This document shows positions 2,016 to 39,440 of a stretch of DNA of 64,000 nt, one piece after another. A program made the translations under genes and the position numbers. Numbering within the stretch: position 1 is the first letter of the stretch; the number at the start of each line of letters is the position of its first letter. The DNA lies in the NCBI RefSeq assembly GCF_000195295.1, contig NC_015388.1, positions 1,240,001 to 1,304,000 of the forward strand. The letters run 5' to 3'. This DNA comes from Desulfobacca acetoxidans DSM 11109 (lineage in GTDB: Bacteria; Desulfobacterota; Desulfobaccia; Desulfobaccales; Desulfobaccaceae). The notes under the pieces were generated by a model. That model saw nothing but the letters and a program-made list of their open reading frames with translations, was not told where the DNA came from and searched no databases.

Positions 2016-4709
2016 TTAAGCTTTCTCGATCTGCACGGCGCAGACCTTGTATTCGGGAATCTTGGCCACCGGGTCCAAAGCGGCGATGGTCAAGCGGTTG
2101 GCAGCCGCCTCGGCGAAGTGGAACGGCACAAACACAGTGCCGGGCCTGGCCTTGGGTGAAACCTGAGCTTTTGCAGTAATCTCCCCCCGCCGGGTTCTGA
2201 CCCGCACCTGGTCGCCGGAAGTTATACCATAGGCGCTGGCGTCCAGATCGGAGAGCTCCACGTAACATTCAGGCGCCTTTTCATTCAATCCTCGGGCTTT
2301 TCTGCTCATGGTGCCGGTGTGATAATGGTACAAGAGGCGGCCGGTGGTAAGGTAGAGCGGGTATTCCGGGTCAGGCAATTCCACCGGATCCTTGTGGTCG
2401 ATGGCGAAGAACTGTCCCAACCCGCGGGCAAATTTATCTTTATGCAAAAACATGGTGCCGGGATGATCTTCCGTGGGACAAGGCCACTGGATGCCCCCGG
2501 AATCCAGACGTTTATAGGTGATACCGGCATAAGATGGGGTCACCTGGCGGATTTCCTCGAAAATGTCTTCGGGATTGGCATAATTCATGGGGAAACCCAT
2601 ACGTTTGGAGATCTCAGCGATGATCTGCCAATCCTGCCGGGCTCCGGCCAACGGTGGTATCGCCTGCCGCACTCGGGCCACCCGGCGTTCGGTGTTGCTG
2701 AAAGTACCGTCTTTCTCGGCAAAGGTAACGGCTGGCAGGACAACGTCGGCCAACTGCGCCGTTTCCGTCAGGAAGATATCCTGGACCACGAAGAAATCCA
2801 GTGCCTGCAATTCTTTGATGGCGTGGTTGAGATCGGGGTCCGAGACTACCGGGTTTTCCCCCACCACATATAAGGCTTTAATCTCCCCTTTTAGAATCGC
2901 CGGCAGCATCTCGGTCATGGTCATGCCGACGTAATCGGGCAATCCCGTTACTCCCCAGGCGTCTTCCATCTTCTTGCGACTGGCGGGATCGGTAACTGCC
3001 TGATAACCGGAAAAGACGTTGGGCAGGCCGCCCATGTCGCAAGCGCCCTGGACGTTGTTCTGGCCCCGCAGGGGATTGACGCCGCCCCCCAGGACGCCGA
3101 CGTTACCGGTGAGCATGGCCAGATTGGCCATGGTCTTGACGTTGTCGGTGCCGACGGTATGTTGGGTAATACCCATACAGTAGACAATGGCAGCGGCTTT
3201 GGCCTGAGCGTAGAGGCGGGCTACTTTAATCAGATCGGCGGCGGGGATACCGCTGATCTGCTCCACATATTCCGGCGTGTATTTGGCTAACGTGGCCTTG
3301 AAGGCTTCGAAATTTTCCGTTCGTGCGGCGATGTAATCCGCCGCATGCAAATTTTCATTAATGATGATATTCATCAGGCCGTTGAACACGGCGATGTCAG
3401 TGCCCGGCTTCTGGCGCAGCCAGATGGTGGCGTGTTTCACCAGGTCGATGCGCCGGGGATCAATGACAATCAACGTCTTATTTTTATATCGCGCCGCCCG
3501 TTTGATCCGAGCGGCGATGACCGGATGGTTTTCAGTGGTGTTGGACCCGACGACCAGAATGCAGTCAGTATCTTCCAATTCAGCTATAGAGTTTGTCATC
3601 GCTCCGGAACCGAAGGCAGCAGCCAGACCGGCTACCGTGGAGCTGTGTCAGAGACGGGCGCAGTGGTCGACATTATTAGTGCCGACGACACCGCGCATAA
3701 ATTTCTGGAAGAGATAATTTTCCTCGTTGGTGATGCGGGCGGAACACCAGCCGCCGATGGTCTTGGGGCCATGCTTTTCCTTGATCTCCTGCAGTTTGGC
3801 AGCTACCAAATCGAGGGCCTCATCCCAGGAGGCCTTTTCGAGTTTGCCGTTCTTTTTGATCATCGGCGCGGTGAGACGTTCGGGGTGGTGGACAAACCCC
3901 AAACCGAAGCGGCCCTTGACGCACAGGCGGCCTTCGTTGGGGATGGCCCGAGCGCCCGTGGCCTTGACAATCTGTCCGTCTTTGACATGCAGGTCAATCT
4001 GACAACCAACGCCGCAGTAGGGGCAGGTAGTGCGTACGACCCGCAGCTCCCAGGGTCGGCCCTTGCCGATGGCGTTTTTGTCGAGCAGGGCACCCACCGG
4101 ACAGGCCTGGACGCAGGTACCGCAGAAGACACAATCTGAGTTGAAATAGGGGAAATCGCATTTGGCTACAATCTTGTTATGGCTCCCGCGGTAACCGATC
4201 TGGATGGCCAGGTTTACCTGCCGTTCATTACAGGCCCGGACGCAGCGGCCACACATGATGCATTTGGAAAAATCCCGGACGATCATGCTATTATCGTCTT
4301 CGTAATAATATGTGGTACCGGGCGGGTTGGCGTACGACGGGGTTGCTACCTGATATCTATAGGCCAAGGCCTGGAGTTCGCATTTGCCATTGGCCTCACA
4401 GATGAGACAGTTGTGATTGCCGGAAGCTAACATCAGCTCGATGATATTCTTTCGGGCGGCAACGACTCGCTCACTCTCCGTCTGTATCACCATACCGGGA
4501 GTGGCCGCAGTGGAACAGGCAGTTACCAAAGTCCGCCAACCCTCCACTTCCACCACACAGATCCGGCAGGAGCCGGTGGGTTGGAGCGGCGGAAAATGAC
4601 AGAGCGTGGGGATATTGTAAATACCCGCCGACCGGGCAACTTCAATGATGGTCTGCCCAGTTTGAAACTCGACGGTCTTCCCGTCTATCGTTATTGTGGG
4701 ATTGCTCAT
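2016..4709 (-). CDS. fdhA: Formate dehydrogenase catalytic subunit, selenocysteine (UGA) at codon 354
   Basis: About 897 aa when the in-frame UGA at 3650-3648 is read as selenocysteine; a naive translation splits the gene there. The context Cys-Ala-Arg-Leu-Sec-His-Ser matches the active-site signature of Mo/W formate dehydrogenases, and the frame continues with the conserved STVAGLAAAFG stretch. N-terminal NuoG-like part: [2Fe-2S] ligands C37, C48, C51, C65; His-Cys [4Fe-4S] motif H99/C101/C104/C110; two ferredoxin clusters near 150-160 and 193-203; molybdopterin-domain cluster from C229. It oxidises formate or reduces CO2 at a bis-pterin Mo/W-Sec site. Start chosen at the ATG giving MSNPTITIDG; an in-frame ATG 18 bases upstream (4727) is possible. 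Partner NuoEF follows directly, and mobB/mobA lie at 8922-10081. Confidence 0.95.
3619..3650 (-). promoter_or_regulatory. UGA codon and bacterial SECIS element
   Basis: The TGA at 3650-3648 is followed, 18 bases later, by loop GGTCT closed by a six-pair stem (GTAGCC/GGCTGC, forward 3619-3635). Both the GGUCU loop and the 18-base distance match my recollection of the E. coli fdhF SECIS recognised by SelB. No selA, selB, selC or selD gene lies in this window. Confidence 0.92.
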
Positions 4710-4782
4710 TTTCTCCTTCGCCTCCATCTTGGTTAGCCCAATTAAGACTTACGGATACAGTAAGTATATCTTTTCACATGCT

Positions 4783-32252: not shown

Positions 32253-33596
32253 GTGGGGCAGAGCGCACAACTCTGCATGGCCGTGAAAAGTTTGTTTCCG
32301 GATGGGAACAGGTGTAAAAATTCTTTGGAAGCGAGAATCGAATCCGCCATCTGTCCCGGTTGCGCCTGCCTCTGCGATGACATCGATGTTACCGTGGTGG
32401 ACAACCGTATCTCTCTGGCCGATAATATCTGTCTCTGGGGGGCCAGTAAGATGTTCTCCCACCAGAGATTCCATCCCAAAAAAGAACGCCGCCGACTGCA
32501 ACAGCCCCAAATAAAACACCGAGGTCGCTGGGAAACGGTCGTTTACGAAGACGCCGTCAACCGGGCGGCCGAAATTTTATCTCAAGCCCGCAAACCCGTT
32601 ATCTACGGATTGACCAATTCAGGCTGCTGGGCTCAGGAAGCAGCCCTAACTTTGGCCCGCCGCGCTCGAGCCCGGTTGGAACCGGCCGACCTGGATTTCA
32701 AAGCTCCATATTATCAGAGTCTCATGAAATATGGTCTGCGTTGGGCCCCCCTGGAGATGATCCGGGATGAAGCTGATACTTTTCTTTTCTGGGGGGCAAA
32801 TCCTCTCCATTCCTGCCCTCGTCATGTAGTGCGGTATTCCGTTTTTTCCCGAGGGAGATTCACCGAACGCGGCATCGAAGAGCGTCGCACTGCCGCAGTG
32901 GATCTGCACCGCACGGAGCTGGCAGAGTTTGTAAATATATTCGTTCAGATCGAACCCGGCCAAGAACTTGCCCTCCTGGAAGGTGTGCGGCGTACGGTAT
33001 CAGGGCAGAAGCCAACCCGACCGGTGCGCGGTGTTCGCCGATTGGCCAATCTTCTCCAAGAGGCCTCTTATGGGGTCATCTTTTTTGGCCGGGGGGTGAG
33101 CTATGGTCCGACTGAGGAGCTTTTGGACGGGCTGGCGGCCCTGACAGTTGAGCTGAACCAGAAGGCGCCGGCTATTCTCTTCCCATTATCGGCCGATTTT
33201 AATTCCGTGGGTTTATATCACCTGCTGCTGAGAGAATTGGGCTCTCCCCTGGCTCCGGATTTTAGTGGAGATACGGGTTGTTCCTTTTGTGCGGAACCGG
33301 TACGTCTGCAGGATCGAGACGCCTTGGTGGTCTGTGGCGCTGATCTCTTTTGGTTTTTAACACTCGAACAGATAAGTGATTTAAAGCGGCGGCGGACCCC
33401 GGTCGTGGTCCTGAGCCCTTTTGCCAACCGTTCCGCGGGGCATGCCGACGTGGTCCTGCCAGTAGCCCTGGCCGGAGTGGAGGTGCCTGAAATTGCTTAT
33501 CGCATGGATGGATTGCCCCTGTGTCTGCCCCAATTAGTCTCCTCTTCCCTGCCCGCCGACTCTCAGGTGTTGCAGGATCTGGCCAAGGCCCTCTGA
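32253..33596 (+). CDS. FwdB/FmdB-like formylmethanofuran dehydrogenase subunit B
   Basis: 447 aa from the GTG at 32253 (the ATG at 32277 is possible; neither has a convincing ribosome site). The [4Fe-4S] motif C34-x2-C37-x3-C41 with C60 (CPGCACLCDD) and the metal-ligand cysteine context YGLTNSGCWAQ are the hallmarks of FwdB, the Mo/W-pterin subunit that reduces CO2 to formate. Full length for the family. The pterin-binding subunit FwdD is not encoded nearby. First gene of a six-gene run with Fe-S and Hdr-like partners; works in the cytoplasm. Confidence 0.88.
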   Translation: MGQSAQLCMAVKSLFPDGNRCKNSLEARIESAICPGCACLCDDIDVTVVDNRISLADNICLWGASKMFSHQRFHPKKERRRLQQPQIKHRGRWETVVYEDAVNRAAEILSQARKPVIYGLTNSGCWAQEAALTLARRARARLEPADLDFKAPYYQSLMKYGLRWAPLEMIRDEADTFLFWGANPLHSCPRHVVRYSVFSRGRFTERGIEERRTAAVDLHRTELAEFVNIFVQIEPGQELALLEGVRRTVSGQKPTRPVRGVRRLANLLQEASYGVIFFGRGVSYGPTEELLDGLAALTVELNQKAPAILFPLSADFNSVGLYHLLLRELGSPLAPDFSGDTGCSFCAEPVRLQDRDALVVCGADLFWFLTLEQISDLKRRRTPVVVLSPFANRSAGHADVVLPVALAGVEVPEIAYRMDGLPLCLPQLVSSSLPADSQVLQDLAKAL

Positions 33597-33614
33597 AACA
33601 ATAGGAGACGGGTT

Positions 33615-34988
33615 ATGCGTTTAGTCATTCGGGGGGGGAAGGTTTTTGATCCAGGCTCCGGTTGGGACGGGGAGGAGCAAGACCTCTTCATTCAAGATGA
33701 CCGCATTGTGGCTCAATTAGACGATTGGGACCAGGTCATTGCGGCCCAGGGCCTGGCGGTGACACCGGCAGCCATAGATCTGCGTTCTCCGGCTGCCGGC
33801 TATGGGCAAAATTACCTCCGTTTGTGGGGTTGCCTGCCGACCCCGCAAGAGTTGGGGGAGACCTACGCCCTCCAAGGTTATACTCATATACATGAACCTT
33901 TTTTAACCCTGGCAACTGCCAATTATGTTCATCGGGAGCTGGCCGCTATTCCCATTGTAGACACTTCGGCTTCGTTCCTGCTCAATCTGCGTGAGATGGA
34001 TATTTGGTTCAAGGCGGCGGACAAACTGCCGGAGGTCATCGCCGCCGGCGCCTATCTGGTGGAACATACCCGGACGCTGAATCTGCGTGTAGTGGAGCCA
34101 TTTATTCGCTATCGCCAGGACTTTTATATTCATCGCACCCTGTCCACCGAGGCAGTTTTAGCGGTGTTGGTTGAACTGGCGGATTCACTGGACAGTCGCA
34201 TTATTCTGGAGACGACTCCGGAACTGCTTCTTCTGAGCCCCGCTCCGCAAAAGTTTCATCTGGCGGCATTGGGACCGGCCTTGGTGAACGACGAGGTGAT
34301 GGATCGAGCCTCTCAATTGTTGGAGGCTGGTATGAGTGCCGATATGGGTCTTCTTCCTCCGGTGCGGCAGCCAGATTCCTCGAAATTGCCGGTGAAGATT
34401 GATCTGGGCTGGTTTCAACCTTTCCATCTTACTGCTTGCCCGGAGCCGGATGCTGGCCGTCGCATCCTTCAGGTCGCCTTAGCCGGCCGAAGGGATAATC
34501 TGGCATTTTCGGCGGCGAGCTTGCTGCACACCCCGGTGGCGAGTCTTCCCCTTTTAGTCTCCTGGCTGACAGAACCGACCGTTCGGCAACGGGATTGGGG
34601 TGAGGTTTTGCCGGAGCAGGCGTATTCCTTTCAGGATTGGCTCTGGTCCACCCGAACCCTGCCGGCTAAGCATCTGGGACTTGCCGATCGGGGCCACCTC
34701 CGTCCGGGTGCCAGAGCGGATGTGGCCATGTATGACCTTCCCCCCGATGGGAACCCGGCGCCCTGGCAGGAAAACTCGGTCCGCTGCCGTGTGCTCTTGA
34801 AGGCCGGGGAAATTGTAGTCAACAATTACCAGCTCGTTGCCCCCCAGGTTGGCAAAGCTACTTTCTATCGCGGCACCGGTGGGAAGACAAATCAATTGGT
34901 TGCTGACATCTGTCAGTACCGGAGCTTCCGCCCGGAAAACCTTTGGGTGCAACCACATCTGGGTGTTCATTGGCAACAGGTGGCCTGA
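33615..34988 (+). CDS. FwdA-like amidohydrolase-fold protein lacking metal ligands
   Basis: 457 aa. Start (RGGKVFDPGSG), the LQGYTHIHEP stretch and the end (LGLADRGHLRPGARADVAMYDL, VLKAGEIVVNN) align with FwdA/FhcA, which condenses formate with methanofuran at a dinuclear zinc site. The zinc motif HxH is replaced (DLRSPAAG), and the family's later His and Asp ligands are also not found. It is about 100 residues shorter than archaeal FwdA. By inference it is a structural or tunnel-forming subunit rather than an enzyme. It follows fwdB by 18 bases, and its stop overlaps the next start. Confidence 0.82.
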   Translation: MRLVIRGGKVFDPGSGWDGEEQDLFIQDDRIVAQLDDWDQVIAAQGLAVTPAAIDLRSPAAGYGQNYLRLWGCLPTPQELGETYALQGYTHIHEPFLTLATANYVHRELAAIPIVDTSASFLLNLREMDIWFKAADKLPEVIAAGAYLVEHTRTLNLRVVEPFIRYRQDFYIHRTLSTEAVLAVLVELADSLDSRIILETTPELLLLSPAPQKFHLAALGPALVNDEVMDRASQLLEAGMSADMGLLPPVRQPDSSKLPVKIDLGWFQPFHLTACPEPDAGRRILQVALAGRRDNLAFSAASLLHTPVASLPLLVSWLTEPTVRQRDWGEVLPEQAYSFQDWLWSTRTLPAKHLGLADRGHLRPGARADVAMYDLPPDGNPAPWQENSVRCRVLLKAGEIVVNNYQLVAPQVGKATFYRGTGGKTNQLVADICQYRSFRPENLWVQPHLGVHWQQVA

Positions 34989-35443
34989 TGCCCACTCTGG
35001 AGGAAGTCAAAGAATTTTTGCCAAACCTCGATTGCGGCCAGTGTGGTCTCACCTGTGCTGAATTTGCCGGTTTTTTGCTAACTTTCGAACTGGCGCCGGA
35101 AGACTGCCCGGTACTCCATGAACCCGATTACGCCGGTTTTATTGAGGCCCTGCACGAACTGTTAGGCCAGCCGGCGGCCGAGCCGGCTCGAGGCATGCAA
35201 ATCGATTCCGAGAAATGCATCGGCTGCGGCATTTGTGTGGCTACCTGCGAGTATCACATGGGTAATTGTACAGAAGCCAGGTTGGGGAAAGGTCCACGGT
35301 CTTCAGAGATGATCATCTTTCATATTGTCAATGGCAGTGCCGTTGTGGTTCATCAGGAACGGTGCGTCCGTTTGGTGCAGGCTGCGGAGCAATGCAGCAA
35401 GTGCGCCGAACATTGTCCCACGAAAGCCATTATGCTCTTCTAA
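34988..35443 (+). CDS. Three-cluster Fe-S protein
   Basis: 151 aa. Residues 11-41 form a CxxC-x3-C-x16-C module (C16, C19, C23, C40) like the Fe-S domain of CODH/ACS and RnfB proteins. Then come ferredoxin-like clusters: C77, C80, C83, C87 and the set C126, C136, C139, C143. It is an electron carrier between the Fwd-like and Hdr-like subunits by position. The ATG overlaps the FwdA-like stop (TGATG). Confidence 0.85.
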   Translation: MPTLEEVKEFLPNLDCGQCGLTCAEFAGFLLTFELAPEDCPVLHEPDYAGFIEALHELLGQPAAEPARGMQIDSEKCIGCGICVATCEYHMGNCTEARLGKGPRSSEMIIFHIVNGSAVVVHQERCVRLVQAAEQCSKCAEHCPTKAIMLF

Positions 35444-35445
35444 CC

Positions 35446-35928
35446 ATGGAAAAATTGCACATTCAAGACTTAGACCCGCGTTTTCCCGATGAATTGGCCC
35501 AAGAACCAGGGTGTCAACATCTGCGACGCTGTTTTTCCTGCGGCATTTGTACTGCCACCTGTCCGGTGAGTGTCATTGAGCCGAGCTTCAGCCCGAGTCG
35601 TATCCTGAGGCAGATTTTGTGTGGGATGCGGACGGAATTGTTGGCTTCGCCAGCTTTGTGGTATTGTCTGAGCTGTGCCCGTTGTTCTTTCCAGTGTCCC
35701 CAGGACGTCAGATTTCTGGATATTATCCAGGGCCTGCGCCACCTGGCGGTGCGGGAAGGCGCGGTTAATTCCGAACTGCCGGAGCGTCTGCGCCAGGGAG
35801 AGGTCCTGTTGCAGGAAATGCGGCGGCGGCTCATTGCCCGGCTCATGGCGCATCCGGTCCAGGAAGAAGACCTGGCCTCCCTGCTGGCTGATGTCGTTAA
35901 AGACCTGAAAACGGTGGAACAGGCTTGA
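35446..35928 (+). CDS. HdrC-like Fe-S protein
   Basis: 160 aa with two [4Fe-4S] motifs, C29-x2-C32-x2-C35-x3-C39 and C74-x2-C77-x2-C80-x3-C84, in the spacing of heterodisulfide reductase subunit C, then a helical tail. It relays electrons from HdrA to a partner. No hdrB gene follows, so the acceptor is not the usual heterodisulfide site. It starts 2 bases after the preceding stop codon. Confidence 0.88.
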   Translation: MEKLHIQDLDPRFPDELAQEPGCQHLRRCFSCGICTATCPVSVIEPSFSPSRILRQILCGMRTELLASPALWYCLSCARCSFQCPQDVRFLDIIQGLRHLAVREGAVNSELPERLRQGEVLLQEMRRRLIARLMAHPVQEEDLASLLADVVKDLKTVEQA

Positions 35929-35952
35929 TATTTGGTGGAATGCGGTTGCGGT

Positions 35953-38900
35953 ATGTCTCTTAACCGGCCTTTAGAGAGTGTGGCAGAGCGTCGGGTGCTG
36001 GTGATCGGGGGCGGCATCGGTGGCATCCAGGCGGCGTTGGATTGTGCCGCTCTGGGTCTGCCGGTGACGCTCATTGAAGAAGGCCCTTCAGTGGGTGGGG
36101 TGATGGCACAGTTGGATAAGACCTTTCCCACCAACGATTGTGCCATGTGCATCCTCTCCCCTCGATTGCTGGAGATCAGCCGCAATCCGGCCATTGAACT
36201 GGTTACCTGCAGTCGGGTTCTACAGATAGAGGGAGAGGCGGGAGATTTCCGGGTTGTCATCCACCGCCGTCCCCGATACGTGAATATCAGCGCCTGTACG
36301 GGCTGTGGAGAATGCACCCGGGTCTGTCCGGTCAAGATGCCCGACCCTTATAATCAAGGACTTAATCAAACCAAGGCCATTCATCTACCCTTTCCCCAGG
36401 CGGTGCCGTTGGCAGCCATCATCAACCCCCAGGTCTGCCGATTCTTTCAGGGGAAAAAATGCGGGGCCTGCATCAAGGTCTGTCCGGCTGGGGCCATTAA
36501 TCTGCAGGAACAGCCGGAAGAATGGACCCTGAGGGCCGGTGCCGTTATCTTTGCTGCCGGTATTCAGGCGGCTTCCGCGGCCCATATCCCTCACCGCGAT
36601 CACCCGGATGTCGTAACCAGTCTGGAGTTTGAGCGGATGCTGAGCGCTACCGGCCCGTATGCCGGGAAGCTCTGCCGACCCTCGGACAGCCGGCCGCCGG
36701 AGAAGATCGCCTTTATCCAATGCGTCGGTTCTCGCGATCCACGTCTCGGGGCGAACTACTGCTCCTCTGTCTGCTGCACTGCCAGTCTTAAAGAGGCCGT
36801 CATGGCCACCGAAATTAGCGGCGGCGGGTTGCAGACGGCAATTTTTTATATGGACCTGCGCATTCCTGGCAAGGGGTTTGAACGCTACCTGCAGCAGGCG
36901 GAGCAACACGGGGTGCGGCTGGTTCGCTCTCGAGTTGCCGAGGTGGTTCCCCGTCTCCAAGGGGGCATCGATGTCCACTTCACCGATGCCCAGGGCGCCT
37001 CCTGTATTGAAACCTTTGACCTGGTCGTATTGGCCGTGGGACTGAAGACGCCGTCGCTATGGTCTACGCTGGCAAATAAATGGGGATTGGCGTTAAACGC
37101 TTTTGGTTTTATCGCGGCGTCGCCGGTACAACCTGTACAGACCAGCCGTCCGGGAGTATTTGTCTGCGGAGCCGCCCGCGAACCTATGGATATCTCCGAA
37201 ACTGTAACTTCGGCCAGTGCTGCCGCAGCCGCAGCTTCACAGCTCCTGGGGATTATCCCCCGCCGTCGGAAGTCGGATGTGCAACCTCGCCAGCCGGCGG
37301 CCATACCAGATTTCCCGGTCCGGATTGGCGTATTTCTCTGCCATTGCGGGACCAATATTGCCGGGGTGCTGGACCTGACGACCCTGGCGGCGAGCTTGCG
37401 GCATCTGGACGGCGTCGTGCATGTAGAGGAAAAACTCTTTGCCTGCTCCCTGGAGTCGACTAAACAGATTGCCGAAGTAATTCAAACCAAAGGATTGAAT
37501 CGGATTGTGGTCGCCGCTTGCACCCCCAGGACGCACGAACCGGTTTTTCGGGAGGTTGTGAGTTCGGTCGGCCTCAATCCCGGATATGTTGTGATGGCCA
37601 ATGTCCGGGAGCAGTGCGCCTGGGTGCATCAGCGCGAGAGAGCCCAGGCCATGGAAAAGGCGGGACAGTTGGTTGCTATGACAGTGGAACAGGCCAAAAA
37701 TCTGCCCCCAATTCTATCCCAGAGTTTCCCGATCATCCCGCAGGCCCTCATTATTGGCGGCGGCGTAGCTGGTATGAGCGCCGCCCTGAACCTGGCCGAT
37801 CAAGGCTACCAATGCTATCTCATTGAGAAATCACCGTGCCTGGGAGGGATAGCCAACTCTTTGCATTCTCTGCTAGAAGGTACCCGTCCACAGGAATTTG
37901 TGCAGCAGCTTAGCTCGCTTGTTCTGGGTCATCCGAATATTAAGGTATACGCCAATGCCGAGGTAGTGGGCTTGAAGGGCCATTGTGGCCAATTCCGATC
38001 CCAGGTGCGCTGGCGGACGCCGGTGGGTTGCGAGGAATTGCAACTGGAACACGGCGTCATCATTGCCGCCACAGGGGGAAGGGAATTCAAACCTGACAAC
38101 CGCTATTTCTATGGTGAGGACCCTAGGGTTGTCACGCAACTGGAATTGGAGGCCCAGATACGATCTGACTCCTTGACCTTGGGAAAAACTCCGGCAATTG
38201 TGATGATCCAATGCGTTGGCTCTCGGGAGCCGGAACATCCGTATTGTAGTCGAGTATGTTGTGCAACCGCCATAAAAAATGCTATGCTCTTATTACAGCA
38301 GCGTCCCTTGGCGGATATTGCCGTTCTTTATCGGGATATCCGGGCCTATGGCTTTAAAGAAGAACACTATGTCAAGGCCAAGGAACAGGGCGTCAGGTTT
38401 CTGCCTTATGCCGCGCAGCGTCCTCCCCGGGTGATTGCCAGGCGCCATCGAGCTTTGCTGGTGGAGGTGTGGGACGAGCTGTTGGAGCGCGAAGTGCAAC
38501 TTCAGGCAGACTTGGTGGTTTTAAGCGCCGGTATTGAACCTGGTGCTGACACCGCCCAGGTGGCCCAGCTTTTAGGTGTGCAGCGTACTCCCGAAGGTTT
38601 TTTCCTGGAGGCTCACCAGAAGCTCAAGCCGGTGGAGGCTGCCTCCGAAGGGATTTTCATCTGCGGTCTGGCCCACTCGCCGCGCAGCCTGCCGGAAACC
38701 GTCCTGCAGGCGCAGGCTGCGGCCGCCGGAGCTGCACGAATCCTGTCGCAACCAGCCTTCGCCAGCGGCGAGTACTTCGCCACCATCAGATCGCCGAACT
38801 GTCGACGCTGCCTCAGTTGTTTGGCGATATGCCCGTTCGGTGCAGTTTCTTTGGGCGAAAAAGGTCGGCCGACTATCCATGTCGAACTCTGTCGTGGCTG

Positions 38901-39021
38901 CGGTCTATGCGCCGCCCAATGCCCGGCCCAGGCCATCTCCATGAGCCGTTTGACCGAACCGGAACTGGAGGCGCAGATTCATGGATCTTTTTTTGCTTTA
39001 GACAGGGAGAAGCACGCGTGA
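35953..39021 (+). CDS. Double-length HdrA-like flavoprotein with several Fe-S clusters
   Basis: 1022 aa from the ATG at 35953 (GTG 35935 is an alternative; ribosome sites are weak). Two HdrA units are fused. Unit 1: FAD motif GGGIGG near 19, then Cys-rich ferredoxin motifs (CTGCGECTRVCP, CGACIKVCP). Unit 2 starts near 457 with FLCHCGTNIAG, has a second FAD motif GGGVAG near 598, and ends with two [4Fe-4S] clusters (CRRCLSCLAICP, CRGCGLCAAQCP). HdrA is the flavin-based electron-bifurcating subunit in methanogens. No mvhD or flox gene is adjacent, so the electron input is unknown. Confidence 0.9.
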   Translation: MSLNRPLESVAERRVLVIGGGIGGIQAALDCAALGLPVTLIEEGPSVGGVMAQLDKTFPTNDCAMCILSPRLLEISRNPAIELVTCSRVLQIEGEAGDFRVVIHRRPRYVNISACTGCGECTRVCPVKMPDPYNQGLNQTKAIHLPFPQAVPLAAIINPQVCRFFQGKKCGACIKVCPAGAINLQEQPEEWTLRAGAVIFAAGIQAASAAHIPHRDHPDVVTSLEFERMLSATGPYAGKLCRPSDSRPPEKIAFIQCVGSRDPRLGANYCSSVCCTASLKEAVMATEISGGGLQTAIFYMDLRIPGKGFERYLQQAEQHGVRLVRSRVAEVVPRLQGGIDVHFTDAQGASCIETFDLVVLAVGLKTPSLWSTLANKWGLALNAFGFIAASPVQPVQTSRPGVFVCGAAREPMDISETVTSASAAAAAASQLLGIIPRRRKSDVQPRQPAAIPDFPVRIGVFLCHCGTNIAGVLDLTTLAASLRHLDGVVHVEEKLFACSLESTKQIAEVIQTKGLNRIVVAACTPRTHEPVFREVVSSVGLNPGYVVMANVREQCAWVHQRERAQAMEKAGQLVAMTVEQAKNLPPILSQSFPIIPQALIIGGGVAGMSAALNLADQGYQCYLIEKSPCLGGIANSLHSLLEGTRPQEFVQQLSSLVLGHPNIKVYANAEVVGLKGHCGQFRSQVRWRTPVGCEELQLEHGVIIAATGGREFKPDNRYFYGEDPRVVTQLELEAQIRSDSLTLGKTPAIVMIQCVGSREPEHPYCSRVCCATAIKNAMLLLQQRPLADIAVLYRDIRAYGFKEEHYVKAKEQGVRFLPYAAQRPPRVIARRHRALLVEVWDELLEREVQLQADLVVLSAGIEPGADTAQVAQLLGVQRTPEGFFLEAHQKLKPVEAASEGIFICGLAHSPRSLPETVLQAQAAAAGAARILSQPAFASGEYFATIRSPNCRRCLSCLAICPFGAVSLGEKGRPTIHVELCRGCGLCAAQCPAQAISMSRLTEPELEAQIHGSFFALDREKHA

Positions 39022-39440
39022 GAGAAAGTTATTGCGGCCTCTGTAATGAGTGTCAGTTAGGTGATGCAGAATTTTTAGAAACCGTGGCCCTCATGAAAGA
39101 ATACATTATCCGCTTTCGGGCCAACTACTGGACCCACTGCTTTCCGGAGGGTGAAGGATTTAATTTTGCTGAATTTCGCAAAGGTCTGGACTGGCTGTTA
39201 ACTCATACTGAATGTCCTGGATGCAAGCAGGGCCGGGGGTTGGCGGATTGCCCGATTCGCCTCTGTGCCGTCGGCCGGGGGATAGAAAATTGCTATGAGT
39301 GTCCGGATTTGAAGGAGTGCGAGAAATTTGATTTTTTGATCGCAGAGTTCCCCGACGTCAAAATCAAACTCCTGCGCCTGCAGATGCAATTTAAGGCCCG
39401 GGAACACCATCGGCGCCTGGAAGCCGAACAGAGGGCTTGA
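39018..39440 (+). CDS. DUF3795-like cysteine-rich protein
   Basis: 140 aa, beginning at a GTG that overlaps the HdrA-like stop (GTGA). Starts RESYCGLCNEC and contains HTECPGCKQGRG, CPIRLCAVGRG and NCYECPDLKECEKF, the cysteine pattern of DUF3795. It probably binds a metal or Fe-S cluster. Translational coupling makes it part of the Fwd/Hdr-like operon. Confidence 0.85.
   Translation: MRESYCGLCNECQLGDAEFLETVALMKEYIIRFRANYWTHCFPEGEGFNFAEFRKGLDWLLTHTECPGCKQGRGLADCPIRLCAVGRGIENCYECPDLKECEKFDFLIAEFPDVKIKLLRLQMQFKAREHHRRLEAEQRA

Follow-up and report, generated by a model that had tools for sequence, protein, structure and literature searches.

The genome of Desulfobacca acetoxidans DSM 11109 (G000), a sulfate reducer that uses the CO-dehydrogenase pathway to oxidize acetate to CO2 (PMC3156406), carries a six-gene operon that probably (at odds of roughly 60%) descends from a Fwd-Hdr supercomplex, its former C1 enzymes now serving as a scaffold and iron-sulfur wire for the bifurcation or confurcation of electrons among soluble carriers. 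The operon lies at positions 32253-39440 of the window, which is the whole stretch of 64,000 nucleotides analyzed here (C1:1240001-1304000 of a genome of one contig, 3,282,536 bp). Gene content, the loss of both C1 sites, the continued presence of the cluster cysteines and of the bifurcation residues, linkage in relatives and purifying selection could all be read from the sequences. Electron wiring rather than CO2 reduction is the most likely function because the CO2-reducing and formyl-handling sites are erased.

Gene content and conservation of the operon

All six genes are on the + strand, and the junctions between them measure 18, -1, 2, 3 and -4 nt from 5' to 3', which agrees with the single operon put forward in a preliminary description of this DNA. 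The identities proposed there for an HdrC-like protein, a double HdrA and a DUF3795 protein were likewise supported by family-model matches, while its "three-cluster Fe-S protein" is indeed present and can now be named more closely as a FwdG relative. Other Desulfobaccales share the gene order of the operon, and further families of Desulfobacterota have the genes in a rearranged form, so the set is not a chance grouping. In comparison with two near relatives, dN/dS was 0.08-0.2 where computable, with high dS; the genes are thus subject to purifying selection, at a dN/dS of about 0.1, and are not pseudogenes. A promoter and terminator scan gave the same counts as in shuffled sequences, and no earlier report of the operon was found in the open-licence literature.

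The C1 sites of FwdB' and FwdA'

The first gene encodes FwdB' (32325..33596, + strand), which has the FwdB fold with the [4Fe-4S] cysteines kept and the W/Mo active site lost, as judged by TIGR03129, Foldseek and a motif table. The reading frame is open from GTG 32253, and comparison with relatives suggests that translation probably starts at TTG 32325 instead. The match to TIGR03129 (285 bits, E 5e-85) is below the equivalog cut-off of 327.8, and the best Foldseek matches of the predicted structure are FwdB of 5t5i and 8rja (TM 0.83-0.85). Residues were mapped by HMMER alignment to 5t5i_B, 8rja_B and 9sfi_Q with the numbering of M. wolfei FwdB as reference; 9sfi_Q has an X at the metal-ligand position, which was read as selenocysteine. 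The place of Cys118-His119, the W/Mo ligand and the gating His, is taken by Phe149-Lys150 (codons 32697..32702, + strand), and 'DFN' stands in place of the canonical 'R-G-H-Y/F-N' (Asp315-Phe316, codons 33195..33200, + strand), with Ser313 and Asp315 at the positions of Arg288 and His290. Cys125 of the window protein was considered as a metal ligand and rejected, as the PDB alignment sets Cys118 at Phe149.

In the FwdB phylogeny, the 29 FwdB' sequences are monophyletic, the branch that sets them apart having 100/100 support, and Cys118, His119, Arg288 and His290 are replaced in every one of them (29/29). At the ligand position the members have Leu, Phe, Trp, Val or similar residues, and in place of His290 there is Asp throughout the clade, compared with His in 15/15 canonical sequences. 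The cluster cysteines C34, C37, C41 and C60 are invariant (29/29), the clade has invariant residues of its own (S31, D45, W62, R171, L294 and D315), and backbone motifs, WGANP among them, are retained. The Cys-His pair is kept in canonical archaeal FwdB and in archaeal stand-alone FwdB, and the Cys ligand is kept in some members of CODH-linked FwdB.

The preliminary description had favored a tungsten or molybdenum CO2 reductase or formate dehydrogenase joined to a bifurcating Hdr, with a pterin cofactor in FwdB. Such an enzyme would fit the family membership and fold of FwdB', its intact [4Fe-4S] cysteines and the Hdr genes within the same operon. However, because Cys118-His119 and Arg288/His290 are replaced clade-wide and FwdD is missing, the absence of the pterin cofactor from FwdB' is strongly indicated by sequence; the FwdA' metal ligands are lost as well, a genome search found no second or intact FwdB in G000, and several ordinary enzymes of the formate dehydrogenase type, one of them with Sec, are encoded in the same genome. 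The original assignment did not survive these comparisons and is highly improbable.

There are molybdoenzymes that do without a cysteine ligand, and the loss of this ligand alone is no proof of pterin loss where backbone motifs persist. FwdB' might bind a pterin without the cysteine and catalyze a different redox reaction, as could be argued from the invariant new residues D315, F316, W62 and W367, from WGANP and the other retained backbone motifs, and from strong purifying selection. Yet a bulky Phe, Leu, Trp or Val fills the ligand position, no D subunit closes the cofactor site, and conservation of the nucleotide site can last for folding reasons. Under like circumstances, the M. extorquens homologue lost its metallopterin through the absence of the D subunit and remodelled FwdB loops (PMC11656701), and a redox enzyme of this kind is distinctly unlikely.

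The second gene encodes FwdA' (33615..34988, + strand), a shortened FwdA relative with the amidohydrolase fold and without the binuclear metal ligands. It scores only 115 bits against TIGR03121 (cut-off 393), and the best Foldseek matches of its predicted structure are 8rja_A and 5t5i_A (TMq 0.83-0.84). The metal-binding HxH has become RxP (H57R, H59P), the carboxylated Lys is an Arg, and other invariant His and Asp residues are also lost. Only the FwdA' proteins of family f40 (L048-L053) keep most of the metal ligands, though their FwdB' is dead, as if FwdA had decayed later than FwdB. These f40 proteins may be a possible intermediate or an amidohydrolase for another substrate.

The expectation that this bacterium would not use methanofuran was borne out, as no methanofuran pathway was found in the genome: Ftr/FhcD and Mch were not found in G000, and the search for FwdC yielded no more than a fragment match below the cut-off, in an ORF of 880 aa, a kind of match that Fwd-less controls gave as well. 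There is no stand-alone FwdD in G000 either, where PF01568 matches lie only in ORFs of at least 543 aa; the same search detected stand-alone FwdD-like genes beside FwdB in G208 and G182, and G208 was also positive for Ftr. True Fhc-like operons (FwdD, B, A, C, Ftr) exist in the phylum (G208/L031), and the operon of the window could be pictured as a remnant of a similar methanofuran/H4MPT C1 pathway. That origin has next to no probability, since G000 lacks Ftr, FwdC, FwdD and Mch, encodes a formate-tetrahydrofolate ligase instead, and the hydrolase ligands of FwdA' are gone.

Putative electron-transfer subunits and the second locus

The remaining genes of the operon encode a FwdG relative, two Hdr proteins and a cysteine-rich DUF3795 protein. 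FwdG' (34988..35443, + strand) is a FwdG-like 2x[4Fe-4S] ferredoxin that has an additional PF04060 cluster domain at its N-terminus; it matches 9sfi_U (1e-7), 5t5i_G and 7bkb_L in the PDB and FeS and Fer4_7 in Pfam. The HdrC-like protein (35446..35928, + strand; TIGR03290, E 9e-21) has two intact CxxCxxCxxxC(P) motifs, and it is followed by a type II (double) HdrA (35932..39021, + strand; NF040770, 916 bits; PDB 8rvu_a and 5odc_A) with three CxxCxxCxxxC ferredoxin motifs. The DUF3795 protein (39018..39440, + strand; PF12675, E 6e-10) has 11 Cys; its gene overlaps the hdrA stop and is conserved beside hdrA across Desulfobaccales. No HdrB with CCG domains was encountered among the operon genes or, by inspection, beside the operons of relatives, and none of the six operon proteins matched an FdhB/FrhB F420 subunit.

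The absence of fwdC, fwdD, hdrB and mvhD, as first described, holds for the operon. In the case of MvhD it does not hold for the system, as MvhD is found fused to HdrA at a second locus (C1:1064999-1070084, - strand), which supplies parts missing from the operon: a FwdF-like polyferredoxin (FwdF'), the HdrA-MvhD fusion (C1:1066714-1069110, - strand; PDB 5odc_A and 5odc_D) and a further HdrA. The best solved relatives of FwdF' are FwdF proteins (9sfi_T, 7bkb_K and 5t5i_F). The pair Glu356/Lys409 marks bifurcating HdrA (residue definition from PMC12054007), and its equivalents are present in each of the four HdrA flavin sites, namely the two halves of the window protein and the two HdrA of the second locus. 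Flavin-based electron bifurcation, as suggested in the preliminary description, is plausible on this ground, and because all four sites keep the pair, the Fwd part looks like a wire and scaffold for bifurcation or confurcation. In one relative (L054), neither residue of the pair is kept in the C-terminal half of its type II HdrA.

The two loci are joined in relatives. The FwdF-like and HdrA-MvhD genes come directly after the DUF3795 gene in several other Desulfobaccales and stand ahead of the Fwd genes in Desulfacinum hydrothermale, a Desulfosoma MAG and family f40, so that both halves share an operon in relatives of at least three families. Among 297 genomes of the phylum, 19 have both FwdF' and FwdB', 4 have FwdB' only and 2 have FwdF' only, counts that are inflated by shared ancestry, although the co-occurrence extends over five families. 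FwdF' had no match in the near relative G080, though FwdB' is present there. The earlier proposal that Fwd-derived and Hdr-derived genes make up one system is supported by this conservation. The Fwd-like proteins could instead be assembly or chaperone-like partners or relics, with only Hdr of importance and the two loci working apart, as the separation of the halves in G000, G110 and G166 and the f13 loci with FwdB'-FwdG'-FwdA' and no neighboring Hdr might suggest. This is rather unlikely, given the dN/dS of about 0.1, the conserved gene order, the shared operon in other families and the intact Fe-S cysteines of all FwdB' members. In some Desulfobaccales (L042, L046, L047), fwdB' and fwdA' are separated by a gene that looks cyclophilin-like by eye.

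Other FwdB relatives were considered alongside. CODH was rejected as a general partner because archaeal-type CdhA was not found in G000; CdhA stands beside FwdA' in some f40 loci. In Chloroflexi, Archaeoglobi and Desulfobacterota (L033, L121, L133, L112 and L115; also L037 and L110), a different FwdB clade has a FwdD-like gene, a FwdG-like gene or both as neighbors, and in many cases an archaeal-type CODH (CdhA/CdhB) too; some of its members have Cys with His changed to Gln or Met, and others have Ser or Arg at the ligand position. The stand-alone archaeal FwdB was also rejected as part of the same system, being a separate clade that keeps Cys-His. These relatives, 36-40% identical, occur in 22 of 58 genomes of the Ca. 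Alkanophaga class (L139, L155-L175), and those examined keep Cys-His, have Lys at the Arg288 position and adjoin no FwdA.

Known systems, proposed role and other redox genes

The system encoded by the operon is not a formylmethanofuran dehydrogenase because defining features are missing from it: Cys/Sec118-His119, Arg288/His290, FwdD, FwdC and the binuclear metal ligands of FwdA. Of the Fwd/Fmd type, it has the FwdB [4Fe-4S] cysteines, the FwdG-like protein of the operon and the FwdF-like protein of the second locus. By HdrA, HdrC and MvhD it belongs to the Hdr family, with the HdrA FAD site Glu356/Lys409 and an MvhD-type electron entry (in the same operon in relatives), and without HdrB in the operon. 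It is comparable to the methanogen Fdh/Mvh-Hdr-Fwd(Fmd) supercomplex (PDB 7bkb, 9sw6 and 9sfi), with which it shares relatives of FwdA, FwdB, FwdF, FwdG, HdrA, HdrC and MvhD, and would work like a Hdr-Fwd supercomplex minus the C1 chemistry. In contrast to the methanogen complex, the Desulfobacca set is bacterial, lacks FwdC, FwdD and HdrB, has both C1 sites erased, and combines a type II HdrA with two further HdrA.

HdrA-based electron transfer is also carried out by Flx-Hdr, Met-Hdr and Qmo in sulfate reducers and acetogens, and none of these bacterial systems is known to have Fwd-derived subunits. The nearest idea in print is that of archaeal type II HdrA - Molybdop - FdhB clusters, which include a non-catalytic molybdopterin-fold protein without Cys118 that was proposed to act as a scaffold (PMC12054007). 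The Desulfobacca set is alike in having a type II HdrA beside a Cys118-less molybdopterin-fold protein, whereas it adds FwdA', FwdG' and FwdF' and has neither FdhB nor HdrB. FhcB of the Fhc formyltransferase/hydrolase (PDB 6s6y) is a second precedent for a dead FwdB, as there too a FwdB relative without functional metallopterin is paired with a FwdA relative. However, Fhc has an active hydrolase, FhcC and FhcD, while the Desulfobacca set lacks the hydrolase ligands and those subunits, and its FwdB' keeps the Fe-S cysteines. The combination of dead FwdB and dead FwdA in one system, with FwdF and FwdG retained, in bacteria and in a conserved two-part gene set, has no earlier report that we found in the open literature.

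In the wire and scaffold reading that we prefer, the operon of the window would be the larger half of a bacterial descendant of the Fwd-Hdr supercomplex, and FwdB' and FwdA' would no longer be C1 enzymes. FwdB', with its fold and [4Fe-4S] cluster kept, would form an iron-sulfur wire and scaffold together with FwdG' and the FwdF' of the second locus, in the order HdrA - FwdF' - FwdG' - FwdB' cluster. This wire would join the flavin sites of the window type II HdrA, with HdrC, to those of the HdrA-MvhD fusion and the further HdrA, and the complex would bifurcate or confurcate electrons among soluble carriers. We infer the physical complex, its electron path, the direction and the carriers from these features. 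In an acetate oxidizer, its likely job would be to bring ferredoxin-level and higher-potential electrons together in a mid-potential carrier, or the reverse, and the complex probably serves acetate oxidation. Counting against the wire and scaffold reading, no HdrB is encoded with HdrC, and the two loci are unlinked in G000. More speculatively, the methanogen-type machine may have been kept without CO2 chemistry as a dedicated hub, its dead Fwd part wiring up to four HdrA flavins in tandem, perhaps giving unusually low-potential electrons or confurcating in acetate oxidation, a tentative extension that we consider possible at best.

The operon suggests that bacteria lacking methanofuran chemistry can retain Fwd parts as wire and scaffold even when neither C1 activity is left. 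Automatic annotation would name these genes formylmethanofuran dehydrogenase, and genomes would consequently be credited with a CO2-fixing enzyme that they probably lack. Desulfobacca and Desulfacinum offer a cultivable system for testing the Fwd-Hdr electron wire and type II HdrA function.

The FdhA at window position 2016 is a separate enzyme, and the independence of the operon from it, as stated in the preliminary description, was supported. FdhA and the upstream NuoG-like ORF (window 2016-4727, - strand) belong to the same reading frame of 903 aa, in which the only in-frame TGA falls at residue 360 ('ARL-U-HSS'), and which encodes a selenocysteine formate dehydrogenase. Four molybdopterin-binding enzymes are encoded within about 26 kb (C1:1216713-1242357), partly just outside the window. 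In addition, a large cluster of double HdrA, MvhD-like and HdrC-like genes, apparently with HdrB-like and MetF-like genes by eye, lies at C1:952945-983000 (L061-L062) and is a possible partner system in acetate oxidation. Several MvhD-type genes in G000 and relatives have an in-frame TGA, which suggests a selenoprotein MvhD.
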